Source: Peptococcaceae bacterium BICA1-7 (GTDB lineage: Bacteria; Bacillota; Desulfotomaculia; Desulfotomaculales; Desulfocucumaceae). Taken from it: a DNA stretch of 64,000 nt. Of this stretch, positions 6,082 through 22,820 are shown piece after piece. Every line of letters starts with the position of its first letter. Within the stretch, counting starts at the first letter, position 1. The stretch is from assembly GCA_000802095.1 (NCBI GenBank), contig JUEB01000026.1, forward strand, positions 124,001 to 188,000. Reading direction: 5' to 3'. The notes under the pieces were generated by a model. The model was not told where the DNA came from and searched no databases. It was given only the letters and a program-made list of their open reading frames with translations. The position numbers and the translations under genes are program-made.

Positions 6082-6213
6082 ATGAGCATGAGAATTGTGG
6101 TAACCGGCAGGGGTCTCTATTTTAACGGTAGGGTATTTGAATTGCTGGCTTACCTGCGCGGCCTTTCAGCAGATATTACGATCAGTGCCCTGATCAGATC
6201 CAGACTTCAATAG
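6082..6213 (+). CDS. Candidate small protein (43 aa), unrecognised
   Basis: An ATG-to-TAG frame of 43 codons on the plus strand, in the gap between two minus-strand genes and overlapping the 3' end of the DUF3866 gene by 48 bases. The product would be basic with alternating strand/helix character (begins MSMRIVVTGRGLYFNGR). A weak GGCGGTG lies upstream of the first ATG. It reads like a real globular N-terminus rather than random sequence, but no homology can be tested here. It could equally be a chance frame. Confidence 0.3.
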   Translation: MSMRIVVTGRGLYFNGRVFELLAYLRGLSADITISALIRSRLQ

Positions 6214-7275
6214 CTCTGCTGTATAGAGTCCCGCCGAGCAGGCAGTGGCGAAAAACTCAGGGTCTTTTGAGACATCTCTGCCCATGGTGGTTATTGATAG
6301 GCCGTATGCCCCCAGTATGTTCTCCACGGGGCCGGGGTCCATTTCCACCACCTGATGCTTTAGTAATATGCCTGACTCCAGGAGCTGCTTTTCCACAACA
6401 CTTTTCTTTTTTTCCCCAAGGGGTGGAATAACCATGGTACAGCCTGTCAGGGCTATTTTGCCAAGGGCGGTCAGAGTATGGTGGCTTATTCCGAAATGCC
6501 TTGGCCTGGAGTCTGCAAAGCTTATCCTGGGTACGGCTATGGCCCGGCCACCCAGTACATTAACGGCATTTACTATCTCTCCCTGCTCAATGGCAGTGTT
6601 GCCGAACATGGTAGCTGTGCCCACTACTCCCGGTCCCATAGCTGCAATTACAGCCCCGGCCCCATTCGCCCTGGCCCAGATAAGCCCGCTGTATATGTTA
6701 ACCGCCTCGTAATCGCCGCCAAAGGCATGCCCGCAGGTTATTGTCTCATCCACCAGCCCTTTTTCTTTTAGCTGGTGGACCAGGTGGCTGAACCAGATGG
6801 GCAGTGATCCCCCGTCGGTCATGAGGTAGACAATCTTTGGCCCGTCCCCGGCCCTGCTGCGCAGCGCCGCAGACACCGGGGCCAGCATGCTGTGCAGGGA
6901 GCAGATAATCACTGGCATGCCGTCAAGGCTGACTTTAGACTGGCACCCACTTACTGCGGGCTGCTCTCTCTCCTCCGAGGAAAGCACCTTCACCTGCAGG
7001 GGGGTATACCTCAGCTTCATTATGTGTCCCTCAAGGCCGGGATCGGAGCCATTACGATTCAGTACCGCCATAACAAAATGATAGCCGCCGGTGCCAAGGT
7101 TTATTGATACTGCTGTGGTATTTAAAAGCACCTGATCCCCGGCCTCAACCGGCCCGGTTATGTATTCATAATTTATGGCCCTCTCAGGACGGCCCTCAAT
7201 ATCGACGGTTATTTCCTCCAGGCCGGGCCTTCTGCTGACTATAGATGAGACAGATCCAAGCCTTTTCCTGATCAA
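6166..7275 (-). CDS. DUF3866-family protein
   Basis: 369 residues, recognised as DUF3866, a family of Firmicutes and Actinobacteria of unknown function. Visible features are an N-terminal beta-rich region (EITVDIEGRPERAINYEYITG, then a VEAGDQVLLNTTA segment) and an alpha/beta C-terminal part with several glycine loops (MTDGGSLPIW, TCGHAFGGDYEAVN, AAMGPGVVGTATMFG). The TTG start has a GGGGG ribosome site 8 bases upstream. It sits 20 bases behind the peptidase gene and is probably co-transcribed with it. Confidence 0.65.
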   Translation of the reverse strand: MIRKRLGSVSSIVSRRPGLEEITVDIEGRPERAINYEYITGPVEAGDQVLLNTTAVSINLGTGGYHFVMAVLNRNGSDPGLEGHIMKLRYTPLQVKVLSSEEREQPAVSGCQSKVSLDGMPVIICSLHSMLAPVSAALRSRAGDGPKIVYLMTDGGSLPIWFSHLVHQLKEKGLVDETITCGHAFGGDYEAVNIYSGLIWARANGAGAVIAAMGPGVVGTATMFGNTAIEQGEIVNAVNVLGGRAIAVPRISFADSRPRHFGISHHTLTALGKIALTGCTMVIPPLGEKKKSVVEKQLLESGILLKHQVVEMDPGPVENILGAYGLSITTMGRDVSKDPEFFATACSAGLYTAELLKSGSDQGTDRNIC

Positions 7276-7295
7276 AGGTATACCCCCGGCTAATT

Positions 7296-8417
7296 TCAGT
7301 ATTTTTGCGCGCTCTTGACAATTTCCACTATATATTTGCTACCCATAACCAGATCATCTATTTTTATGTACTCTCCGGTGGTGTGCACATTCTGCATGGC
7401 TATTCCCAAAACCACTGTGCTGATGCCCTTTTCATTGAACATATTGGCATCGCTCCCTCCCCCGGTGCTCAAGAGCCTCGGTTCCAGGCTAATGCTTCGG
7501 GCGGCCTCCGCCGCTATTTTTACTACCCGTTCATCTTTATCTATATTGAACTCCCGATAAAGGTTTTCCACCTTTATATCCAACTGTGCTCCAAATTGCT
7601 CCGCCGCCTCCCGGGCCTTATCGATTATTTCCCCGGTTTGTTTTTTTACCCTGGCCCCGTCCAGACTTCTTGTTTCCCCCTGGATGAAGACTGTGTCAGG
7701 CACAATATTGGTGGCCTTTCCGCCGCTTATAACCCCTATATTGGCAGTGGTTTCCCCGTCAATGCGCCCCAGCTTCATACCGGCAATGGCTTTGGCCGCC
7801 ACCTCGATGGCGCTTATTCCTTTCTCAGGGCATATTCCGGCATGGGCCGATTTACCCTTTACCGTGATGGAAATCCTGTCCTGGGTGGGGGCCTGGGTAA
7901 CAATGGATCCCGGGGGCCCGTCGCTGTCCAGTATAAAACCTATTTTGGACTCTATCTTTTCTCTATCGATATTGGCCGCACCTAAAAGGCCACCCTCCTC
8001 AAAAACTGTCAGCACAACTTCCAGGCCGCCATGCTTTACCTGGTTTTCCTTTATTACTCTGACAGCCTCGAATATTATGGCAATGCCGGCCTTGTCATCC
8101 GCTCCCAGCACTGTGTCTCCGGAGGACTTTATAAGGTCCCCTTCCAGCACCGGCTTTACCCCCCGGCCCGGCTCCACTGTGTCCATGTGGGCACAAAGTA
8201 AAAGAGGGGCCCCGCTGCCTCCGGTGGCCGGCAGTCTGGCAATAAGGTTGCCGGCCTGGGTGTTTATTTTGCTGCCGGCATCATCCTCGTATACCACCAT
8301 GCCCAATTCCTCAAGCTTCAACTTGAGTGTATCCGCTATTTTCCTCTCAAAGCCGCTTACACTGTCAATCTTCACCAGCTCTAAAAATTCATTGACCATT
8401 CTTTCCCGGTTTACCAT
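7296..8417 (-). CDS. M20-family metallopeptidase, tripeptidase T-like
   Basis: 373 residues. The M20 di-zinc signature is complete: CAHMDTVEPG near residue 95 (His-x-Asp), GADDKAGIA near 140 (bridging Asp), the EEGG general base near 168 and STGGGSDANMF near 318. A dimerisation domain is inserted at about 180-290. It should be a cytosolic exopeptidase releasing N-terminal residues from short peptides, of the PepT-like subgroup. ATG start behind a strong GGAGGTG. A transcription terminator separates it from the oxidoreductase operon upstream. Confidence 0.82.
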   Translation of the reverse strand: MVNRERMVNEFLELVKIDSVSGFERKIADTLKLKLEELGMVVYEDDAGSKINTQAGNLIARLPATGGSGAPLLLCAHMDTVEPGRGVKPVLEGDLIKSSGDTVLGADDKAGIAIIFEAVRVIKENQVKHGGLEVVLTVFEEGGLLGAANIDREKIESKIGFILDSDGPPGSIVTQAPTQDRISITVKGKSAHAGICPEKGISAIEVAAKAIAGMKLGRIDGETTANIGVISGGKATNIVPDTVFIQGETRSLDGARVKKQTGEIIDKAREAAEQFGAQLDIKVENLYREFNIDKDERVVKIAAEAARSISLEPRLLSTGGGSDANMFNEKGISTVVLGIAMQNVHTTGEYIKIDDLVMGSKYIVEIVKSAQKY

Positions 8418-11221: not shown

Positions 11222-11905
11222 CTACTTCCTTTTCCAGGGCGGCTCCATATAGGTGTCGATAGGGAATATTAGGGATTTATCACCAAATAGCTCTTTTACA
11301 TTACTGTAAATATCCCTCTTGACCACGGTGAACAGCACTGGTATGCCTGTTTGTTCAGCTACAGACGATACTGTGCGGTACCCTTCCAAAACTGTTTCCG
11401 GGCTGGTCTCCATTCCAAGGTTGGTATTGCAGACAAGTCCACCTGCCTTAAGCCCCGAGGCTTTCTCTATGCTGCTCAGGTATTTTATAATTCCTTCAGT
11501 GTCACCGGTAAATGGTCGGCAGGTGTTAGCCACAAAGATCATTGAAAAATCCTCATGTGCCAGCAGATCCCTGTACCTTCCCAGGGCTACCGCCCCCACA
11601 TCATCACCGCCCACATCAAAAATTCCGGTATGCTGACGGTTTTCAATGACTCCCTTAATAGCCGGGGATAAGGCTGGAAGATCCGCAAAAGACAGGTCTC
11701 CTATAGGAGTTAAAACATTAAGGCCCATTTCCTCAAGCTTATCCCTTACCAGCCTGGTGCGGAAATACGGGTTAATAATATCAAGGTCCACCAGGTATGT
11801 TTTTTTCCCCTGGTGGGCCATGCTAAGGGCCAGATTTATGGCAATTTCAGTTTTCCCGCTGCCCAGATTACCCGTAATAATACTTATTCTTTTCTGTAGG
11901 GGCAT
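11222..11905 (-). CDS. P-loop ATPase of the MinD/CobQ-like superfamily linked to the oxidoreductase operon
   Basis: About 227 residues. The ATG at 11905 is chosen because GGTGGAG lies about 9 bases upstream; a GTG at 11923 is possible but has no ribosome site. The Walker A motif is G-N-L-G-S-G-K-T near residue 12, followed by YLVDLDIINPYFRTRL and the Walker-B-like FDVGGDDVGA near 93. The N-terminal fold looks like MinD/ArsA-type deviant ATPases that use dimerisation. The substrate is unknown. It is transcribed just upstream of the ferredoxin gene (88-base gap), so a maturation or assembly role for the Fe-S oxidoreductase is a reasonable inference. Confidence 0.6.
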   Translation of the reverse strand: MPLQKRISIITGNLGSGKTEIAINLALSMAHQGKKTYLVDLDIINPYFRTRLVRDKLEEMGLNVLTPIGDLSFADLPALSPAIKGVIENRQHTGIFDVGGDDVGAVALGRYRDLLAHEDFSMIFVANTCRPFTGDTEGIIKYLSSIEKASGLKAGGLVCNTNLGMETSPETVLEGYRTVSSVAEQTGIPVLFTVVKRDIYSNVKELFGDKSLIFPIDTYMEPPWKRK

Positions 11906-11963
11906 ACTGATTATCTCCACCAAATCAATACCTGTGCTCTCACTATTTGTTGAATTATTTTTT

Positions 11964-12042: not shown

Positions 12043-12897
12043 CTAATTTTCGTTTCTGTTCCTTCCCAGCATGTCTAAAAAATTTAACATTCTGTTGGAA
12101 GCTATTATGCCGGTCAGGGAATATTTCTCTGAAATGATATTGACGGCAGCCAGTGTAAGCAGATACGCCAACTTTGCCTCCACGCTGAAAAGCCAGATCA
12201 CTGACAGCCCCATAACTGCTCCCAGGGCGTTGGCCCCGGCATCCCCCATCATGGCCCTTCCCTTCAGATCAGCCGGCAGATAGGCCGCCAGGCAGCCGGC
12301 GGTGAGCGCTAAAAAAACTACCGGGGGACTGGTGCTGAACAAAAAAATAATCACTGCGGCCGTGGCCAGATACACCTTCCCGGCCCTCCCGGGCCTGAGA
12401 TCCAAAAGGTTATAGGTGTTCACCGACAATGCCAGCGCCAGCGCGTCCAGAGGTATTATGGCCAGCCTCCCAGGACCGGCATTGTTCAATAAGGAAATGT
12501 ATACAGCCGCCAGTCCTCCTCCCAGAGCTTTTACAGCGCCGGTGGTCGGCCTTCCCTCAATAAGGCTTTTAATATGGCCCTTAAAGCCCCTGTATTTACC
12601 GTCACCCCAGCAGTCATCCATAAGTCCAAGCAGGGTGTAAAATGTCAGTGTGAAAAGAAATAAAGAGGATAATTGTGTCAGTCTTCCGGAAAGGGCAAAT
12701 AAAAATAATGGGGAGGCAGCTGTGGCCCCCAAATAAAAAATAACCCCTGCGCCAGTGGGAATCTCCCTGCCGGTATAGTTCCTTTTACAGAAGCCCGCAC
12801 TGGTTATTATATCCAGCATGCTTTTGTTTATAAGGCTCACTGCTCCATATCCTGCTGCCAGCAATACCGCAGCTGTCACTGACACATCAGATACCAA
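12043..12897 (-). CDS. MraY/WecA-like glycosyl-1-phosphate transferase family protein
   Basis: 284 residues with about nine membrane helices. Family landmarks are REIPTGAGVIFYL near residue 45, the Asp pair in GLMDDCWGD near 91-95, a VNTYNLLDLRPGR segment near 160 (MraY-type N-x-x-N-x-x-D loop) and MMGDAGANALGAVMG near 217. Such enzymes load a sugar phosphate onto undecaprenyl phosphate at the inner membrane face. It is shorter than MraY and grouped with SteA/SteB and a glycosyltransferase rather than mur genes, so it is probably a dedicated wall-polymer initiator or a divergent paralogue. TTG start with GGTGATGG upstream. Last gene of its cluster on this strand. Confidence 0.7.
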   Translation of the reverse strand: MVSDVSVTAAVLLAAGYGAVSLINKSMLDIITSAGFCKRNYTGREIPTGAGVIFYLGATAASPLFLFALSGRLTQLSSLFLFTLTFYTLLGLMDDCWGDGKYRGFKGHIKSLIEGRPTTGAVKALGGGLAAVYISLLNNAGPGRLAIIPLDALALALSVNTYNLLDLRPGRAGKVYLATAAVIIFLFSTSPPVVFLALTAGCLAAYLPADLKGRAMMGDAGANALGAVMGLSVIWLFSVEAKLAYLLTLAAVNIISEKYSLTGIIASNRMLNFLDMLGRNRNEN

Positions 12898-12906
12898 AGT
12901 ATTCCA

Positions 12907-13584
12907 TCACCCGCACCATCTGTAATGTTTAAACAATGTCCCGGCAACATTAATAAACTGCCTTCCCCTGTGAAGAAATCCTCTGACATCTCTTCCGGTT
13001 TCCCGGTGAAACATATCCACTGGGACTTCGATAATGCTGTAGCCCCTCCTGGCCGCCTTCAGGGTAAGATCCACCTCAACTCCGAAGCCGCCTGCCAAAG
13101 GAACCGAGTCAAAGAACAGAGCTGTTTTCATGGCCCTCTGCCCGGACAGTGGAGCCTCCATACGAATACCCGTAAAAAACTTTATTCCTGCCCTGGCCAG
13201 CCCTTTTACCATGCCCAGGCCTGCTTTACCGGCAGCCCTGGGGAAGACAGCCACTGTCATATCAGCCCTTCCCGTAAGAACAGGCTCAACCAGTTTTTCC
13301 GCGCCAGCAGCGCTTTTACCCAGGTCCGCATCCAACAGCAAAAGAACATCGCCTGTTATATAGCCGGACCCCATGTTAAGGGCGCCTCCTTTGCCAATAT
13401 TCTTGCCCGCCGACACCACCACCGCACCGGATCTGGCTGCAATGGCCGCTGTCATGTCTGCCGAGCCGTCATCTATGACTATTACCTTTCCTACACCATC
13501 TATGGCCAGGGCTGCCAAAACAGTTTCACCTATGGCGCCCTCCTCATTATAGGCAGGTATCAGCACTGTCACTCTATCTTGCAT
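12907..13584 (-). CDS. Family 2 glycosyltransferase
   Basis: About 225 residues. The ATG at 13584 is preferred: GGAG lies about 10 bases upstream and the protein then begins directly with MQDRVTVLIPAYNEEG. GT-A motifs are VIDDGSADMT, NIGKGGALNMG, LLLDADLG (the D-x-D metal site) and a C-terminal EVPVDMFHRETGRD. It overlaps the SteB-like gene by 11 bases and ends 9 bases before the MraY-like gene, so the four genes form one unit. It probably transfers a sugar to the lipid carrier made by its neighbour (inference). Confidence 0.75.
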   Translation of the reverse strand: MQDRVTVLIPAYNEEGAIGETVLAALAIDGVGKVIVIDDGSADMTAAIAARSGAVVVSAGKNIGKGGALNMGSGYITGDVLLLLDADLGKSAAGAEKLVEPVLTGRADMTVAVFPRAAGKAGLGMVKGLARAGIKFFTGIRMEAPLSGQRAMKTALFFDSVPLAGGFGVEVDLTLKAARRGYSIIEVPVDMFHRETGRDVRGFLHRGRQFINVAGTLFKHYRWCG

Positions 13585-14446
13585 TGACAACAACTCCGTA
13601 ATCAATATCCGGCAAAATCTTCTTTGCGGTGGACTTTATGCCGTAGCTGCCCGGCCTTCCCTCAATGGCGTATACCAGCGCCACCAGACCCGGCACGGTA
13701 TCTATATTATCGATAGTAGTAATCTTTTTACCCTGATACAAATTCATCAGGGAAACAGGTATACAGCTCTCTTCAACCCCGAAAACATTTATGTTTTGAG
13801 ACAGAAAATAGTCTATTATGTCACCGTCCAGGCTTTTGGGCCTGCTTTCGCCACTGTCACGGCGGCCTCCTATCAATACAACATCGGTTAGCCGGCCTCC
13901 ATACAGCCCTTCTTTTTTAATTGGCGCCAGTACATCTACTATCGCCGTGTCTCCGGTCAAAACCGCCCGGGAGATCTCCCTGCCAATTCTGAGGCTTTTC
14001 TCTGTCTCAACGGCCCAATTATTGCCGTCGGCCCGGGAGATCCCTTCAGGGCTAAAGTCAAGTTCCCCCAGTAGTGTAACCGAATGTATGTCTGCGCCGG
14101 CAGCTTTAAGTGTTCCGGTAAGCTCTGCCGGGGCAGCAACGCCATTAATATCTATAACAGCAATATTTCTATCCTTCAGTCTGTCTGAAACCAGAGTTGG
14201 CAATACCTGCCTCTCAAATTTAACCTGTATGTTGTTCTGCATCTCCAGTGATCCTATCCTGGACCGTAGTGACTGGTTGTTCTTTTTTAATTGATCCAGC
14301 TGTGACTCAAGACTTGTAGTTAGCTGGGACTGACTATTGGCCAGAGAGTCCTCCCAGGGCACCGCACAGCCTATGAGCATACCCAGTCCCAGAGCCAGAA
14401 AAACAGCCACCAGCGAGGCTAAATGGTATTTGAGGTTAATGAACAT
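13574..14446 (-). CDS. SteB/MctB-like membrane-anchored coiled-coil protein (copper transporter family)
   Basis: 290 residues. One N-terminal membrane helix (about 9-27, with VFLALGLGMLIGCAV) is followed by a coiled coil (about 36-68, rich in Q, S and L) and an extracytoplasmic alpha/beta domain. Databases label this family copper transporter after mycobacterial MctB, but in Corynebacterium the equivalent SteB works with SteA in cytokinesis and cell separation. Its place directly after the SteA gene (21-base gap) favours the SteB role. No copper-binding His/Met cluster is evident. Confidence 0.65.
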   Translation of the reverse strand: MFINLKYHLASLVAVFLALGLGMLIGCAVPWEDSLANSQSQLTTSLESQLDQLKKNNQSLRSRIGSLEMQNNIQVKFERQVLPTLVSDRLKDRNIAVIDINGVAAPAELTGTLKAAGADIHSVTLLGELDFSPEGISRADGNNWAVETEKSLRIGREISRAVLTGDTAIVDVLAPIKKEGLYGGRLTDVVLIGGRRDSGESRPKSLDGDIIDYFLSQNINVFGVEESCIPVSLMNLYQGKKITTIDNIDTVPGLVALVYAIEGRPGSYGIKSTAKKILPDIDYGVVVNAR

Positions 14447-14467
14447 TAAAACATCTCCCAGATATGG

Positions 14468-15589
14468 TTATATGCCCAGGTAAAGCCTGAACTGCAAATA
14501 TAAGAGCCTTATTATTCCCCGGGCCGGTGTGGAAAGAAGCATAATCATAATGGCCGGTATTAGTGCGGCCAGGGTTATTTGAGCCAATTGGCAGGCCTTT
14601 ACCCTGCTTTTGTAAAGCCTGCTCACCCCCTTGGCGTCCACCAGCTTAGAGCCCACCCTGAGCCTTACCAGAAAAGTGCTGGCCATTCCCTTTCTGCCCT
14701 TGTCAAGAAAATCAAAAATATTGGAATGGGCCCCCACCAGTACAATAAGCTCAGCGCCCTTTTCGTGGGCCAGAAGCATGGCAATATCCTCACTGGTTCC
14801 CGGGGCAATGAATTGTATAGCTTCAAGGCCCAGGCTGCTTATCCTGACCAGTGCAGGCGATCTTCCATCCCTGTAGGCGTGGGCGATAAGCTCGGCGCCG
14901 CAAGTAAGTGTGCTGTCGCTGACGCTGTCCATGTCCCCAATAATAATGTCCGGAGAATAACCCAGTTCTTTTAGCGTGTCGGCCCCTCCGTCAACACCTA
15001 TAAGGACCGGCTTTACCTCGTCTATATAATGTCTTATGGCCTTAAGGTCATTCCTGAAGTCCTGGCCCCTGACCACTATAAGCACGTGTTTTCCGGCTAT
15101 ACAGTTTTTTATGTCGGGAATTTGGCAGTCGCCGCTAACAAGCTCCATTTCATTGCGGGCATATTCCAGTGTGTTGCATACAAAATCGTGTATAAGGCTG
15201 TGCATGTTGCTTTTTAGTGATTCCATCTCTTCATTTATCTGCTTAAGATCCAGTATTCTGCCGGACGCCACAACCCTGTTTTTGCAAACCACCCGATCTC
15301 CGGTAATCTCAATGTTATCGCCGTCCAATATATTCATCATTATATCCTTGCCCACATTATCCAGCAGCAAAATTCCGGAGGATACCAGAATAAAGGGTCC
15401 TCCATTGGGATACCGGTCACTTAAGGAAGGTGAGGCGTTTATAACCGCCTTTATCCTTTTCTCAGCAAGACTATGAGCGGCCAGGTCATCCAGTTCACCG
15501 TGATCAATGACAGCTATATCGCCGGGATTAAGACGTTTGACCAGATTCTTGGTGACGCCGTCCACCCTGGCGGTGCCCCGTATAGCCAT
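14468..15589 (-). CDS. steA: SteA-like putative cytokinetic ring protein (thiamin pyrophosphokinase-related)
   Basis: 373 residues. The central region resembles thiamin pyrophosphokinase (GVDGGADTLKELGYSPDIIIGDMDSVSD, roughly 195-222), but the catalytic context is different. The N-terminal domain carries DIAVIDHGELDDLAA, and the C-terminus has two hydrophobic segments (about 325-350) for membrane attachment. This three-part architecture is that of SteA proteins, which localise with the division ring in Corynebacterium. First gene of a SteA-SteB-GT-MraY-like unit lying directly downstream of spo0A and separated from it by a terminator. Confidence 0.75.
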   Translation of the reverse strand: MAIRGTARVDGVTKNLVKRLNPGDIAVIDHGELDDLAAHSLAEKRIKAVINASPSLSDRYPNGGPFILVSSGILLLDNVGKDIMMNILDGDNIEITGDRVVCKNRVVASGRILDLKQINEEMESLKSNMHSLIHDFVCNTLEYARNEMELVSGDCQIPDIKNCIAGKHVLIVVRGQDFRNDLKAIRHYIDEVKPVLIGVDGGADTLKELGYSPDIIIGDMDSVSDSTLTCGAELIAHAYRDGRSPALVRISSLGLEAIQFIAPGTSEDIAMLLAHEKGAELIVLVGAHSNIFDFLDKGRKGMASTFLVRLRVGSKLVDAKGVSRLYKSRVKACQLAQITLAALIPAIMIMLLSTPARGIIRLLYLQFRLYLGI

Positions 15590-15650: not shown

Positions 15651-15717
15651 TAAAAAAAACTGGCCTGAAGCCAGTTTTTTACTGCGAGATGGCGCCGCCC
15701 ACAGGGCGGTTTTTTTA
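15651..15717 (-). terminator. Terminator pair downstream of spo0A
   Basis: Two hairpins. ACTGGC / GCCAGT at 15659-15675 has T runs on both sides and can terminate either strand. A GC hairpin CCGCCC / GGGCGG at 15695-15709 is followed by T on the plus strand. Together they isolate spo0A from the SteA gene. Confidence 0.75.
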
Positions 15718-16485
15718 GCTTACCTTGGTCTCTATCCTGAGCTTGTCCGCCACCATGGCGATGAACTCGGAGTTTGTGGGCTTGCCTCTTTCCAGATTTA
15801 TGGTGTAGCCGAAGAACTTTGTCATCATCTCCACATTGCCCCGGTCCCAGGCCAGCTCAATGGCGTGACGGATTGCTCTTTCCACTCTGCTGGGGGTAGT
15901 CTGGTATTTTTGAGCAATCATGGGGTAAAGCTCTTTTGTAACGGCGCCCAGCAGGTTTATTTCGTTTATGACCATCAAAATGGCGTCCCTGAGATAGTGA
16001 TAGCCCTTTATATGCGCTGGCACACCCATTTCATGTATTATATTTGTCACCGCTACATCGAGATTTTTGGGTTTTACTGCTGAAATATACTGGTTGGGAT
16101 TGATACCATCCGACAGCTGCCTTATTCTTGAGGCCAGTACAGAAAAGTCAAAGGGCTTTAGTATATAATAGTCAGCTCCCAGTTCTACAGCTCTTTGAGT
16201 TACTGTTTCCTGCCCAAAGGCTGTCAGCATGATTACCCTTGGCCTGTTGGGGATATATCCGGTGGCTAGTTTCTCCAGCACTCCAATGCCGTCAAGATGC
16301 GGCATAATAATATCCAGTACAATTATGTCAGGAGCGTTTTTTTCTATTAGTTCCAATGCCTCGATACCATTATTGGCAATGCCCACCAGAACCAAATCAT
16401 CCTGCTGGCTGATAAATTCCTTTAATAATTCACAAAATTCTCTGTTGTCGTCCGCGATAATAATTTTGATAGCTTTACGCATCAT
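15715..16485 (-). CDS. spo0A: Sporulation master regulator Spo0A
   Basis: 256 residues. A receiver domain at about 1-125 has the acidic pair in IIIADDN, the phosphoryl-acceptor Asp in [13 protein letters not shown] near residue 57, the switch Thr in VIMLTAFG and Lys in YYILKPFD. The Spo0A effector domain follows at about 145-255, with [16 protein letters not shown] and the DNA-recognition stretch [21 protein letters not shown]. It activates early sporulation genes when phosphorylated. The PAS kinase at about 46.2-47.4 kb is a plausible phosphodonor. GCC(G)TC/GTCGAA-like sequence near 16557 on the minus strand could be a weak 0A box for self-regulation, but the match is poor. Confidence 0.95.
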
Positions 16486-16710: not shown

Positions 16711-16748
16711 GGAAAAAGAATAAAATGAGGTATAAATACCTCATTTTA
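16711..16748 (-). terminator. Terminator of spoIVB
   Basis: A perfect 12-bp stem (TAAAATGAGGTA / TACCTCATTTTA, loop of four) at 16721-16748 overlaps the spoIVB stop codon. The minus strand then reads T-rich. It separates spoIVB from spo0A. Confidence 0.75.
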
Positions 16749-18020
16749 TGATGCTTTTTGTATTGTTTTGTCGTTAAGCAGCCCCATCTCTTTTAACATC
16801 CACTCTGCCGGAACTCCGTAGCCTCTTTGTGGATCGTTTATAAATACATGGGTAACAACTCCTACCAGCTTTCCGTCCTGTACTATGGGACTCCCGCTCA
16901 TACCCTGTATTATTCCTCCGGTTGCAGCGATAAGCTCTCTGTCCGTTACTTTTATCACCATGCCTTTGCCCCTGCTGTTCCAGGGATAAAAAACGTCCTG
17001 TATTTCAACACTGCAGCGTTTTATTTCTGTTCCTTCAATAACCGTGTAGATATCTGCCGGACCCTTTTTTATTTCACAGCTCATAGCTATCGGAACAGGT
17101 TTTGGGAAAAAGGGATTTTCGGTCAGTGTCTGTATTTGGCCATAAATGCCGTAACGGGTATTCTTGTCTATACTGCCGGATATACTGCCATCTTCCACTA
17201 TCATTCCCAGTTTTTCTCCGGGGTAGCCTCTTTTCCCCCGGTGAATTGCTCTGATATGGGCCTCCACTATTCTGCCGTCACTAAGGTCTATCCCCCTGGC
17301 AGTGTCCACATCCGTTATTATGTGTCCCAGGGCTCCGTATGTTTTGGTTGTAGGAATAAAAAAGCTCAGTGTTCCTACACCGGACGCGCTGTCTCTTACA
17401 AAAAGACCTATTCTTGGGCGTTTGGTTTCACGGCATAGAGTGGCTTTTACTTTTATTTTTAATTTTCTGCCTCCCCTTTTGATCTCCAGTTCAGCTTCTT
17501 CTTCCGCACCCAGAACACTTATTTCATTTTTAAGTTGAAATTCGTTGGTGACTTTTTTACCGTTTACTGAAAGTATTAAATCACCAATTTTAACTCCTGC
17601 CTCTTCTGCCGGGTTTGATGAATTTCCGCTATGATCCTTAATACTGGACATCCCTACCACCATTACACCTTTGGAGTGCATCAAAATACCTATTGACTGA
17701 CCTCCCGGTATTACTGTAACAGGTGAAACCACATTAACTGCCATCTTTTTAAAGGGTATTAACCCAAGCGCCTTAAAACTTAGATACTGTTTGGCCCTGT
17801 GTTCTTCAGCAGTTTTTTCTTTAACAACCTCTACTGTGAAGCCGTTTAGTATTCTGTTGGCAAAACTGCCTGGCTTAAGCTGTTCCCCTGTATATATGCT
17901 GAGTTGGTCTACATTAGAGGAAATAATACTGAAATACATAATTAAAAAAATAACTACTGCCGAACAAGCTGTTTTTAACTTTGGTAATACAATCCGGCAG
18001 CGGTCTTTTTTCAATGACAC
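16746..18020 (-). CDS. spoIVB: SpoIVB serine peptidase
   Basis: 424 residues. An N-terminal membrane/signal segment lies at about 18-36. A PDZ domain at about 110-195 contains SNPAEEAGVKIGDLILSVNG. The S55-type peptidase domain at about 210-415 has the His in LGHIITD and the nucleophile Ser in QGMSGSPIVQDGKLVGVVTHVF. SpoIVB is made in the forespore, crosses into the intermembrane space and triggers pro-sigma-K processing. It lies between recN and spo0A, its conserved position. It is probably transcribed by forespore sigma factors, but no confident promoter was picked out of the AT-rich upstream region. Confidence 0.93.
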   Translation of the reverse strand: MSLKKDRCRIVLPKLKTACSAVVIFLIMYFSIISSNVDQLSIYTGEQLKPGSFANRILNGFTVEVVKEKTAEEHRAKQYLSFKALGLIPFKKMAVNVVSPVTVIPGGQSIGILMHSKGVMVVGMSSIKDHSGNSSNPAEEAGVKIGDLILSVNGKKVTNEFQLKNEISVLGAEEEAELEIKRGGRKLKIKVKATLCRETKRPRIGLFVRDSASGVGTLSFFIPTTKTYGALGHIITDVDTARGIDLSDGRIVEAHIRAIHRGKRGYPGEKLGMIVEDGSISGSIDKNTRYGIYGQIQTLTENPFFPKPVPIAMSCEIKKGPADIYTVIEGTEIKRCSVEIQDVFYPWNSRGKGMVIKVTDRELIAATGGIIQGMSGSPIVQDGKLVGVVTHVFINDPQRGYGVPAEWMLKEMGLLNDKTIQKAS

Positions 18021-18362: not shown

Positions 18363-20051
18363 CTAAAAGCGGACATTATTCTTCCCTGCACCGGCCAGCA
18401 TCTGTCTGGCATGATCTTCCGCTGCCTTTCCATCGCCCCCCAGCATCCTGGCCAGCTCATCAATTCTCTGGTTATCTTCCAGGTTAACTACCACAGCCAA
18501 AGTTCTGCCCCCCGACTCCATTTTTCTTATGGCCATGTGCCTATCGGCAGCACTGGCCACGCTGGGCGAGTGTGTAACGCAAATTACCTGTCTTCTGGAG
18601 GAAAGTTTTTTCAGCTTGAGGGCAACTGACTTGATGGTTAATCCTCCTATTCCGGTATCGACCTCGTCGAAAACCAGTGATGGTGTCTCCTCAAGTTCGG
18701 CAAGTATCCCCTTTACAGCCAGCAGAATGCGCGACGCCTCTCCCCCTGAGGCTATCCGGGATAGGAGCCTAACCGGTTCGCCGGCGTTGGCAGACATATA
18801 AAACTCCGCTTTTTCACGGCCTGTTTCGCCAATACTGTCAAGCCCGGTAAAATTTATTACGAATTCTGAGCCTGACATTTCCAAATCGATAAGCTCTTTT
18901 TTTATAGCTTTTTCCAGCTGACCGGCATATTTTTTTCTGTAGGCGGTCAATTTTAAGGAAGCTTTGCCAAGTCTTATTTCAATAGCAGCCAGTTCAGACT
19001 TGAGAAATTCCAGCCTCTGGTCGCCATCTAATATTTCTGAAAGCTCTTTTTTTATTGCCTCGCCATAACTTAATATTTCTTCTATGGTGTCACCATATTT
19101 CTTTTTTAGCCTTCCCAGCAAATCCAGCCTGCCCTCAATTTGCTCCAGACGGACGGGATAGAACTCAAGGCCGTCCATATAGGCGGATAGCTCCCGGCAG
19201 GCCTCCTCTGCCTGGTACAGGCTCTGGGTGGCCAGTTCCAGGGCACGGTTAAGCACCGGGTCCAGCCCGGCTGCTTTTTCAAGATTCTTAACAGATTTTC
19301 CGGCCAGGTCCAGCACTGATTCCGCCGGTCCTCCGCCGTACATGTACTGATAGCATTCATTTACCAGTGCTGAAAGCTTTTCAATATTGACAAGCTTTCT
19401 TTTTTCCCATTCCAGCTCCCCATCCTCGCCTGGAATAAGGGCCGCGCTGTCAATCTCATTGACCTGGAAACTGATTATATCCTGCTTTCGGGCCCATTCC
19501 CGGTATTTTTCCTGAAGGCTGCGGATGTTATTTCTTTGATCAGCCCACTCCCGGTATAGAGATTTTACTTCGGCGGCGGCCACGGCTATTTCTTCTCCGC
19601 CATAGGCATCCAGCAGCAGCAGGTGTTTTTCCGGAGCAAACAAAATCATCTGGTCATGCTGGCCCTGAATGTCTATCAGTGCCTGGCCGAATTCCTTGTA
19701 CACGGCAAGTGTGGTGATCTGGCTGTTAATGCGGCATATGCTGCGGGTTTTGTTTAACTCCCGGGACATAACAATAATTCCGGTGCTGTCGCTGTTGATG
19801 CCTCTTTCGGAAATTAAGTCCTCTATATGCTTTAGGCCTTTGATATCGGCAGTCAGCTGAATTATTGACTGGTCACAGCCCGCCCTTATGTATTCCGTTG
19901 AGGATCTGCCTCCGGATACCACCCCAATGGCGTCGATAATCACAGATTTTCCTGACCCAGTTTCTCCGGACAGAACATTAAGGCCGGGGCTGAAATCAAT
20001 ATCTGTTTTTTCTATAATGCCGAAATCTTTAATAAAAAGATTGAGCAGCAT
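18363..20051 (-). CDS. recN: DNA repair ATPase RecN
   Basis: 562 residues, full length. Walker A is G-E-T-G-S-G-K-S at about 30-37. A long coiled coil lies at about 150-390. The ABC-type signature is SRIASGGEASRILLAVK near 437, and Walker B is PSLVFDEVDTGIGG near 465. RecN is an SMC-like protein recruited to double-strand breaks. Its start is 2 bases from the argR stop, so both are read from one message ending at the terminator beyond recN. Confidence 0.95.
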   Translation of the reverse strand: MLLNLFIKDFGIIEKTDIDFSPGLNVLSGETGSGKSVIIDAIGVVSGGRSSTEYIRAGCDQSIIQLTADIKGLKHIEDLISERGINSDSTGIIVMSRELNKTRSICRINSQITTLAVYKEFGQALIDIQGQHDQMILFAPEKHLLLLDAYGGEEIAVAAAEVKSLYREWADQRNNIRSLQEKYREWARKQDIISFQVNEIDSAALIPGEDGELEWEKRKLVNIEKLSALVNECYQYMYGGGPAESVLDLAGKSVKNLEKAAGLDPVLNRALELATQSLYQAEEACRELSAYMDGLEFYPVRLEQIEGRLDLLGRLKKKYGDTIEEILSYGEAIKKELSEILDGDQRLEFLKSELAAIEIRLGKASLKLTAYRKKYAGQLEKAIKKELIDLEMSGSEFVINFTGLDSIGETGREKAEFYMSANAGEPVRLLSRIASGGEASRILLAVKGILAELEETPSLVFDEVDTGIGGLTIKSVALKLKKLSSRRQVICVTHSPSVASAADRHMAIRKMESGGRTLAVVVNLEDNQRIDELARMLGGDGKAAEDHARQMLAGAGKNNVRF

Positions 20052-20053
20052 CT

Positions 20054-20512
20054 CTAACCTCCGGAAAGAACTTTTAATCTTTTTACTACGTCAGGCACCG
20101 CACTAATGGGCTTTACCACCATTATTATGGTATCGTCTCCCGCAACAGTTCCAATAATTTCAGGCCAGTCAGAATTATCTATGGCCGAGGCCACTCCCTG
20201 GGCCTCTCCCGGCAAAGTTTTAAGAACCACCATATTTTCGCTGTGATCTATTTTCTGCACTGAGTCAACAAAGAGTCTTTTTAGTCTTTTTTCCTTGTCC
20301 GGGATTATAGTCCTGTCAGGCACAGCATATATTGAAGAATTATTTTCCCCGGGAACCTTTATCAGTCCAAGCTCCTTTACATCCCTGGATACTGTGGCCT
20401 GGGTAATGGTAAAGCCGGCCAATCCCAGCTCATTAGCGAGCTGTTCCTGGGTTTCAATGGACATGTTCCTTATAATATCTATAATTCTTTTTTGTCTGAC
20501 AGATTTAATCAT
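20054..20512 (-). CDS. argR: Arginine repressor ArgR
   Basis: 152 residues. A winged helix at about 1-70 has TQEQLANELGLAGFTITQATVSRDVKELGLIKVP. The C-terminal hexamerisation/arginine-binding domain has GTVAGDDTIIMVV, the arginine-contacting loop, near 120. It represses arginine synthesis and controls catabolism. It overlaps the methyltransferase gene upstream by 4 bases, and its place before recN is conserved in Firmicutes. Confidence 0.93.
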   Translation of the reverse strand: MIKSVRQKRIIDIIRNMSIETQEQLANELGLAGFTITQATVSRDVKELGLIKVPGENNSSIYAVPDRTIIPDKEKRLKRLFVDSVQKIDHSENMVVLKTLPGEAQGVASAIDNSDWPEIIGTVAGDDTIIMVVKPISAVPDVVKRLKVLSGG

Positions 20513-21093
20513 ATCTTATCTCCGGCCCTGGTTATAAAGTATAGTTCCGGACTCTCTTTATGGCTGTTCCAGAAAACCATTTTCTGCACTGAGAACTCTT
20601 TTTCGTCCAGTCCGGATAACAGTCCTGCCACTGCCTGTGACTCCTCCAGCGCCCCTTTGTGGCCGGTATAGACAACTATACTGATCCGGCCCCCGGGATT
20701 AATTATTGAAAGAGCCGCCATTATTCCGGACACGGTAGTGTCCGGGGCTGTGACCACCTCTCTGCCGCCCCCTGGGAGATAGCCAAGGTTAAACATAACA
20801 GCGTCTACAGGAGCCATCACCAGACTAGCCAGATGCTGGTGACCGGCCAGTATTGTTTTTACCCTTTCAGACATACCCTTGCCTGACACCAGGCGGAGTG
20901 TCCTGGTAAGGGCCTCCTCCTGTATGTCCAGTGAGTATACTCTGCCGTCAGGACCTACCCCCTCCGCCAGAAAAACGGTGTCCTGTCCGTTTCCGGCAGT
21001 GGCGTCCACAGCCGTGCTCCCGTTTCCCAGGGCCGGGTGAATGAAAACCCTTGCCCACTGCACGGCGCTGGCCGGTCGTTTGGGAACAGTCAA
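20509..21093 (-). CDS. mnmM: tRNA methyltransferase MnmM (YtqB-type SAM-dependent methyltransferase)
   Basis: 194 residues, Rossmann-fold methyltransferase. Motif I is VDATAGNGQDTVFLAE near residue 28, then VYSLDIQEEAL and the substrate-site MFNLGYLPGG near 100, followed by TTVSGIMAALSIINPGGRI. The FNLGYLPGG-type motif is characteristic of the YtqB family, which in Bacillus methylates 5-aminomethyl-2-thiouridine at the wobble base. It overlaps nadK by 4 bases and argR by 4 bases. Confidence 0.8.
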   Translation of the reverse strand: MTVPKRPASAVQWARVFIHPALGNGSTAVDATAGNGQDTVFLAEGVGPDGRVYSLDIQEEALTRTLRLVSGKGMSERVKTILAGHQHLASLVMAPVDAVMFNLGYLPGGGREVVTAPDTTVSGIMAALSIINPGGRISIVVYTGHKGALEESQAVAGLLSGLDEKEFSVQKMVFWNSHKESPELYFITRAGDKI

Positions 21094-21953
21094 GGTCTTT
21101 CACCTTCTCTGAGCTTTTGTTTAAGGACCCTGAAAAAGCTCCTTGTCTTGAGCCTTATAAATCTAACCTTATAAGGAGATCTGGTTATCTTCACAACATC
21201 GTTCTTGATAAGCTTCAGCCCATGCTGCCCGTCGATTGTAAGCATGACTTCACCCTTTTCGGACAGCAGCTCCACCTCTACCTCACACCCGGAGGAAATA
21301 ACTATGGGCCTGGCCCAAAGAGCATGGGGGCAGATAGGGGTAAGCAGCATGAGGTCCAGCTCTGGGGTTACCACCGGCCCGCCGGCTGATAAAGAGTAGG
21401 CGGTAGAGCCGGTGGGTGTGGCCACTATCAGGCCGTCTGTGGGGTAAGTGCTGACCTGCTCTCCATTTACCCTTGTCTCCAGAAAAATAAGCCGGGCGAA
21501 GGCCCCCTTGGTTATAACCGCGTCATTTAGCCCGGTGGCCCTTTCTATTTCCTTTCCGTCGCGCAGCACGGCAGCCTCAATCATCATTCTTTCTTCTATG
21601 TAAAAGTGGTTATTAAGAACGCTCTCAAGTCCCTGCTCTATATCGGGTATATCTATTTCAGACAGAAAGCCAAGGTGTCCAAGGTTTATTCCCAGGAGAG
21701 GCACACCGGACTCGGCCACCAGCCGTGCGCCGTTCAGTATGGTGCCGTCCCCCCCGAAAACCAGGAGGCACTCAATATTTCTTAGCATTTCATGCAGGGG
21801 CCTGTACCTCACTTTGCCGTCAAAGCTGCCGGAAAGGTCTTCCTGCAGCGTTACATCTATACCCCTCTCCAGGAACCAGTCACATATCTTGCCGATTATC
21901 TCCTTAACACCGGCTTTATGAAGATTTGCAGTTATACCGATGGATTTCGACTT
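21090..21953 (-). CDS. nadK: NAD kinase; start codon unclear
   Basis: ATP-dependent NAD kinase making NADP. The signature GGDGTIL is present just after ECLLVF, with INLGHLGFLSEI, LNDAVITKG and the DGLIVATPTGSTAYSLSAGGP motif. The first canonical start in frame is GTG at 21812 (240 residues), which would remove the first strand-helix unit. The frame upstream is open and encodes a typical NadK N-terminus (KSIGITANLHKAGVKEII and on), homologous from about 21950, preceded by a strong GGGAGGGGG, yet it holds no ATG, GTG or TTG. The end given here is the likely homology start, not a proven initiation codon. It lies between tlyA and mnmM in one unit. Confidence 0.85.
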   Translation of the reverse strand, partial: KSKSIGITANLHKAGVKEIIGKICDWFLERGIDVTLQEDLSGSFDGKVRYRPLHEMLRNIECLLVFGGDGTILNGARLVAESGVPLLGINLGHLGFLSEIDIPDIEQGLESVLNNHFYIEERMMIEAAVLRDGKEIERATGLNDAVITKGAFARLIFLETRVNGEQVSTYPTDGLIVATPTGSTAYSLSAGGPVVTPELDLMLLTPICPHALWARPIVISSGCEVEVELLSEKGEVMLTIDGQHGLKLIKNDVVKITRSPYKVRFIRLKTRSFFRVLKQKLREGERP

Positions 21954-21992
21954 GGTTGCCCCCTCCCGGATATTAACTAAGCGGATTGTTCT

Positions 21993-22820
21993 CTAAGAGA
22001 ATAGACTCACTTTTTTATAATTAAGATCATTATGCGCCCGGGCGACAGTTTCCTCTATTTTCTTTTCATCTAAATGTCCGGGTTCTGAAAAATCAAAATG
22101 TAAAAGGTATTCAATATTCCCCTCAGGCCCCTTCACAGGAGAAAAATCCAGCCCCAGAACACTCCAACCGTTAGCTACAATCATTGTGCACACATTTTTA
22201 ATAACTTCCCGGTGAGTGCCGGGGTCCTTAACCACGCCCTTTTTGCCTACCTTATCCCGCCCAGCCTCAAACTGGGGCTTGATCAGGGCAATTCCCCGGG
22301 ACTTTTCTTCTGTAAGACCTGCTATAGCCGGCATTATTTTGCCAAGTGAAATAAAAGAAACATCTATGGTTATAAAATCAGGCTTTTTACCCAGCTTATC
22401 AGACTGCAAATTCTTTATATTGGTTCTTTCCAGGGTGACTACCCGGGGGTCTGACCTAAGCTTCCAGGCCAGCTGGCCGTATCCAACGTCCACCGCGTAA
22501 ACCATAGCTGCCCCGTTTTGCAGAGAGCAGTCGGTGAAGCCTCCGGTGGAGGCCCCCACATCGAGAACGGTCTTTCCTTTCAGATCAATGTTAAAGGCAC
22601 TTAACGCCTTCTCCAGCTTGAAGCCCCCCCTGCTGACATACGGCAGCCCTCCGGCTACCTCCAGGGTGGCATCAGTCCTTACCTTCATACCGGGCTTGTC
22701 GGCCAGCTGGCCGTCTACCCTTACGCTGCCGGCCATAATGGCCGCCCTGGCTCTCTCCCTGCTCTCGAAAAAACCTTTTTCATGCAGTATGGTGTCTATC
22801 CTCTGTTTTTCACCGCTCAA
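21993..22820 (-). CDS. tlyA: TlyA-type 16S/23S rRNA 2'-O-methyltransferase
   Basis: 275 residues. An N-terminal S4 RNA-binding domain lies at about 4-62 (RIDTILHEKGFFESRERARAAI). An FtsJ-like methyltransferase domain at about 65-250 contains VLDVGASTGGFTDC, the Y-A-V-D-V-G-Y motif and ALIKPQFEAG. It methylates cytidines of rRNA in the ribosome. It overlaps dxs by 11 bases; the dxs-tlyA-nadK order is common in clostridia. ATG-type start agrees with the family's N-terminus. Confidence 0.92.
   Translation of the reverse strand: MSGEKQRIDTILHEKGFFESRERARAAIMAGSVRVDGQLADKPGMKVRTDATLEVAGGLPYVSRGGFKLEKALSAFNIDLKGKTVLDVGASTGGFTDCSLQNGAAMVYAVDVGYGQLAWKLRSDPRVVTLERTNIKNLQSDKLGKKPDFITIDVSFISLGKIMPAIAGLTEEKSRGIALIKPQFEAGRDKVGKKGVVKDPGTHREVIKNVCTMIVANGWSVLGLDFSPVKGPEGNIEYLLHFDFSEPGHLDEKKIEETVARAHNDLNYKKVSLFS

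Follow-up and report, generated by a model that had tools for sequence, protein, structure and literature searches.

The present analysis concerns a four-gene cluster in a stretch of 64,000 nucleotides from Peptococcaceae bacterium BICA1-7 (contig JUEB01000026.1, positions 124,001 to 188,000), which is called the window in the following. The cluster consists of steA, steB, a GT2 glycosyltransferase gene, and a gene for an enzyme of the MraY/WecA fold, for which the name MraYl is used here. On the minus strand, the gene order is recN, spoIVB, spo0A, steA, steB, GT2, and MraYl. The four cassette genes are nearly gapless, and steA begins 125 bp past spo0A. An earlier reading of the letters alone (the sequence-only reading) had proposed this four-gene unit, and its coordinates match those found here. 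The features of the locus are as follows:

14468 to 15589, minus strand: steA, 373 amino acids (aa); NF040608, PF12555, and PF04263; cytoplasmic thiamine diphosphokinase (TPK)-like domain and C-terminal membrane anchor
13574 to 14446, minus strand: steB (MctB/SteB family), 290 aa; PF11382; a single membrane helix at the N terminus, followed by a long helix
12907 to 13605, minus strand: GT2 glycosyltransferase, about 225-232 aa; PF00535 with 71 bits; start codon uncertain, overlaps steB
12043 to 12897, minus strand: MraYl, 284 aa; PF00953; divergent protein of the polyprenyl-phosphate sugar-1-phosphate transferase (PNPT) fold
15654 to 15680, minus strand: terminator-like hairpin in the gap between spo0A and steA, a 12-pair stem followed by a T run; a pattern match only
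15715 to 16485, minus strand: spo0A; TIGR02875 with 421.7 bits; a neighbour, not counted as part of the functional unit
16746 to 18020, minus strand: spoIVB; TIGR02860 with 441 bits; a neighbour
18363 to 22820, minus strand: recN, argR, a methyltransferase gene, nadK, and tlyA, the upstream frame; the names tlyA and nadK come from homology and gene order, without a family search

The names SteA and SteB, as given in the sequence-only reading, were upheld by profile hidden Markov models. SteA scored 482.5 bits against the equivalog NF040608 (E 7e-145, cut-off 150) and aligned over 324 residues with the crystallised SteA of M. tuberculosis (9HMY, E 1e-70). It has a cytoplasmic core like that of 9HMY and 9HMZ, followed by a C-terminal membrane anchor with PF12555 (SteA-like_C) at residues 320-369 and one hydrophobic segment. 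PF04263 is also matched above the gathering score. The thiamine diphosphokinase equivalog TIGR01378 was not reached by SteA (38 bits versus a cut-off of 76.4); despite this shortfall, the TPK-like motif DGGAD/GDMDS is intact in the window protein. SteB matches PF11382 (MctB) with 123 bits over its full length (residues 3-279) and has the N-terminal transmembrane helix and subsequent coiled coil of this family. Its AlphaFold2 model is weak overall (predicted local distance difference test, pLDDT, 60.9), with confident helices at 5-26 and 34-80. The GT2 protein keeps the DXD, SGQR, and HRGxQ motifs across 31 relatives and is soluble by hydropathy in relatives. Its best PDB match is glucosyl-3-phosphoglycerate synthase. 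With the DPM1-like and GpgS-like enzymes it shares the GT2 domain, the DXD motif, and similarity to that synthase and to polyprenyl-phosphate sugar synthases. However, it scores far under every NCBIfam equivalog cut-off, and a function cannot be transferred to it.

MraYl matches PF00953 with 34.5 bits, just over the gathering score of 27, and no NCBIfam family was matched by the window protein. Its AlphaFold model (pLDDT 81.8, predicted template modelling score 0.81) has the PNPT fold, and the top 38 fold matches in PDB were all MraY, DPAGT1, or members of the same enzyme family, with probability 1.00. Among the catalytic Asp residues, whose state the sequence-only reading had put in question, D94, D95, D166, and D219 are shared without exception by 36 relatives from the same phylum. 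When MraYl is aligned with the MraY and the WecA-type enzyme encoded in the same genome, these four positions fall on conserved Asp. In the DGLDG motif, the second Asp has been lost. An invariant DLRPGR stands in its place, within a signature, N160xxNLxDLRPGR171, that does not vary in 36 same-phylum relatives and 21 Actinomycetota proteins. The HHH loop and the last helix of MraY are missing as well. MraYl is thus like MraY in its fold and metal-binding Asp positions, but it is not MraY proper; TIGR00445 was unmatched in the window protein and scored far under the cut-off in relatives. The genome also encodes a canonical MraY in a mur-type context and a WecA-type enzyme beside a galU-like gene, so MraYl is a third, dedicated PNPT member. 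The enzymes of the WecA/TagO type belong to the same fold family and share PF00953, whereas MraYl is a separate single-copy gene with its own invariant signature.

MraYl could have lost catalysis, kept only the fold, and serve as a membrane scaffold for SteA, and the replaced Asp, the missing loop and helix, and a Pfam score so close to gathering would all fit such a protein. However, the four Asp residues stayed invariant when the 36 relatives were followed by 22 diverse sequences, including some from another phylum. Such residues would not be expected to persist in a dead scaffold, which makes this alternative very improbable. MraYl is likely catalytically active; its donor sugar specificity cannot be predicted. 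Two large actinomycete genomes without SteA retain MraYl at the recN locus (L192:8807-9556, plus strand; L193:8328-9107, plus strand; L numbers denote sampled loci). In these copies the signature is eroded, reading DVWPGR and DVGPGV, with H at the position of the otherwise invariant N223.

The distribution of SteA and MraYl was surveyed in 399 genomes of Bacillota, the phylum of the window, and 218 of Actinomycetota (617 in all). Spo0A content and gene order also point to Bacillota as the phylum of the window. In Bacillota, SteA was found above the cut-off in 241 genomes, which suggests a wider occurrence than the published description of a "restricted subset of Bacillota" (PMC12977500) implies. 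MraYl was found in 238, nearly always as a single copy. Both were present in 237 Bacillota genomes, SteA only in 4, MraYl only in 1, and neither in 157 (phi 0.97). For Actinomycetota (SteA in 98 genomes, MraYl in 91), the corresponding counts were 88, 10, 3, and 117. Among the SteA loci of Bacillota that were inspected, nearly all contained MraYl, and in most the glycosyltransferase gene was directly downstream. The expectation that the four genes co-occur in relatives was therefore borne out. Nearly all SteA loci inspected contain the unit again, so it is not a chance arrangement.

In ten Bacillota genomes, steB has been relocated to a polA-mutM-coaE-transglycosylase-QRPTase locus. Where the steA locus of such genomes was read (L047, L056, L059, L063, and L065), the glycosyltransferase gene and MraYl remain at steA. 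The new surroundings of steB (L199-L208) are conserved as polA-mutM-(Mntp)-coaE-SLT transglycosylase-QRPTase-(SBP_bac_5)-steB, with steB near the middle. This locus was considered as a pointer to the hydrolase of SteB; the lytic transglycosylase encoded there is suggestive only.

It could be argued that four housekeeping envelope genes lie together by chance or through shared regulation and are otherwise uncoupled. The larger conserved block (dxs, tlyA, nadK, recN, pepT, DUF3866, and pyrG) does contain unrelated functions. However, synteny leaves the near one-to-one presence and absence over 617 genomes unexplained, and likewise the agreement of SteA motif and MraYl presence described below. 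Moreover, the trio of steA, the glycosyltransferase gene, and MraYl is retained when spo0A or steB has moved away. Conserved gene order as the sole explanation is improbable and already disfavoured.

The frame tlyA-nadK-recN is common to the window and the steAB loci of Actinomycetota, where the order tlyA-nadK-recN-steA-steB was found in most of 80 named loci. Deep Actinomycetota carry the identical steA-steB-GT2-MraYl cassette (L155, L156, L158-L160, L162, L163, and others) in a frame of dxs-tlyA-nadK-recN on one side and pyrG-pepT-DUF3866 on the other. Neither spo0A nor spoIVB lies between recN and steA in the Actinomycetota cassette loci, and since the shared frame exists without them, the spo0A-spoIVB pair represents a local insertion or loss inside an old gene order. 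In the SteA tree, a single supported branch divides the two phyla, a split with which MraYl is not in conflict. The module may have descended vertically from an old ancestor, or it may have been transferred once, very early. An M20 peptidase and a DUF3866 protein in the window (6166-8417, minus strand) form the downstream part of the old block, in the same order as in deep Actinomycetota (L155-L163). A MinD/ParA-like ATPase gene (window 11222-11923, minus strand) separates MraYl from the kor oxidoreductase genes; in several relatives it travels with the kor genes and not with the ste unit.

Other Actinomycetota have the order steA-steB-MraYl-MurJ-GT4. Many Actinomycetota have a MurJ-family flippase and a GT4 glycosyltransferase beside MraYl, as would be expected for a pathway of lipid-linked glycans. 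In this respect these steAB loci resemble MurJ/Wzx-type export loci for lipid-linked glycans, whereas the cassette of the window has no flippase. The MurJ-family copies that were tested (L140 and L154) score under the murJ equivalog cut-off. In Bacillota, proteins with 10 transmembrane segments at L053 and L056 were considered as MurJ-like flippases and proved to be sodium symporters. Many Actinomycetota also encode a protein of 730-820 aa, predicted to have 10-12 membrane segments, whose gene lies between GT4/MurJ on one side and MraYl or pyrG on the other (L189:12640-15096, plus strand; L184:6764-8953, plus strand; L171:9185-11500, minus strand; L180:9980-12175, minus strand). No Pfam match was obtained for this protein, which may serve the same pathway as a polymerase or ligase.

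The sequence-only reading had interpreted the cluster as a division- or sporulation-linked wall polymer pathway, largely unstudied. SteAB downstream of Spo0A in Clostridia had in fact already been published, together with the suggestion of a role in sporulation (PMC12977500). No paper was found that names the glycosyltransferase or MraYl as partners of SteAB, in a search beyond which most subscription papers lay. New here are the cassette shared across phyla, the near one-to-one co-occurrence of SteA and MraYl, and the intact SteA pocket that matches the presence of MraYl. The near one-to-one co-occurrence supports a connection of SteA to a pathway of lipid-linked sugars, and a wall polymer is a plausible product; the sporulation part did not stand.

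A dedicated pathway for the envelope of sporulating or asymmetrically dividing cells, controlled together with spo0A, would account for several observations. The unit adjoins spo0A in most sampled loci of Bacillota, and SteA is present in 234 of the 337 genomes with Spo0A versus 7 of the 62 without Spo0A above the cut-off. However, the tracking is loose (phi 0.43), and 103 of the 399 genomes have Spo0A and lack SteA, so presence does not follow Spo0A or endospore formation. Six of the inspected loci (L035, L036, L041, L055, L068, and L069) have the unit intact and away from spo0A. One genome without Spo0A above the cut-off (G040, at L058) nevertheless keeps spoIVB-steA-steB-GT-MraYl. The same cassette occurs in Actinomycetota, outside sporulating lineages, and in the window a terminator-like hairpin separates spo0A from steA. 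Sporulation as the driver was rejected on these grounds, and a pathway dedicated to it is quite improbable. The spo0A neighbourhood of steA looks like old synteny.

The nucleotide pocket of SteA provides a second connection to MraYl. SteA of C. glutamicum is stabilised by UDP or GDP (PMC12977500). The motif GDMDS was found in 40 of 40 sampled Bacillota loci and in 55 of 61 other Actinomycetota loci; it was not among the common motif forms of 53 loci, most of them mycobacterial or pseudonocardial. For 128 loci whose neighbourhoods are complete, the pattern GD-x-DS was compared with the presence or absence of MraYl; L164 and L191 were counted as MraYl-positive from the genome-wide search of Actinomycetota. 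Both were present in 100 loci and neither in 28, with zero exceptions. A further 11 loci that end at contig ends all have the motif. Among the 10 Actinomycetota with SteA only, 4 have steA or steB at a contig end and an intact motif. The other 6 have a complete locus, in which steB or steA leads straight to pyrG, and all have eroded motifs; these six were fetched after the pattern had been seen, and 6/6 fit. The match is a strong correspondence and not statistical proof of coevolution, as a test for independent origins had no statistical power with a single event.

Such a pocket may also be catalytic. SteA could be an enzyme of the pathway whose TPK-like site would synthesise, alter, or degrade the nucleotide-activated substrate of MraYl and the glycosyltransferase, or a by-product. 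Control of SteB would then be secondary and would survive alone in mycobacteria. The loss of GDMDS only where MraYl is lost, a conservation tighter than a loose sensor needs, and the PF04263 match favour this proposal. The score against TIGR01378 argues against it, as does the report of UDP and GDP binding but no reaction, which was obtained with a protein of the eroded form (PMC12977500). We consider an enzymatic SteA unlikely.

The reading that we favour, with a probability of roughly 0.45, is that a lipid-linked glycan pathway of MraYl and the glycosyltransferase is coupled through the SteA pocket to wall remodelling controlled by SteAB. MraYl would begin the assembly of a lipid-linked glycan at the cytoplasmic side of the membrane, GT2 would add the next sugar or supply an activated sugar, and a flippase would export the product. 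The SteA pocket may read the state of the pathway through a nucleotide sugar, a released nucleotide, or a lipid intermediate. SteB, as the partner of SteA, would carry this state through the membrane and on to a hydrolase of the septal wall, and cell separation would thereby wait for the glycan. The output through SteB is proposed by analogy with mycobacterial and corynebacterial work, in which SteB recruits and activates the hydrolase RipA (PMC12977500).

Several points weigh against this coupling. No RipA-like coiled-coil NlpC/P60 protein was found in the genome of the window, and no flippase adjoins the unit in its lineage. In another study, mycobacterial SteA (TapA) has been placed upstream of the MtrAB kinase, where it activates MtrB, and not upstream of SteB (PMC12338722). 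In addition, the agreement between pocket and MraYl traces back to a single change in the SteA tree; L214 is possibly a second, on a long and uncertain branch. The own genome does contain a coiled-coil M23-type (EnvC-like) protein after ftsX (L197:243-2340, plus strand), which is only a candidate for the hydrolase or activator addressed by SteB.

The closest known system is the SteAB-RipA complex for cell separation of Corynebacterium and Mycobacterium (PMC6705760, PMC12977500). SteA and SteB are homologous over their full length, SteA of M. tuberculosis is 41% identical to that of the window, and the gene order tlyA-nadK-recN-steA-steB is the same. In contrast to the window, these clades lack the glycosyltransferase gene and MraYl downstream of steA-steB, and their SteA pocket motif is eroded; RipA, in turn, is the component without a counterpart found in the window's genome. 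It is possible, and is put forward tentatively, that most bacteria with SteA make an unrecognised lipid-linked glycan through MraYl, whose precursor is sensed or processed by the SteA pocket. The well-studied SteA of mycobacteria and corynebacteria would then be a derived remnant in which pathway and pocket chemistry have both been lost.

Work on mycobacterial cell division has yet to settle which ligand the SteA pocket takes up, and the present analysis ties this pocket to MraYl in two phyla. It predicts that the pocket is functional in organisms with MraYl and not in those without. The published suggestion that the position of SteAB beside Spo0A points to sporulation is also corrected. MraYl itself represents a widespread third family of sugar-phosphate transferases without a known product.

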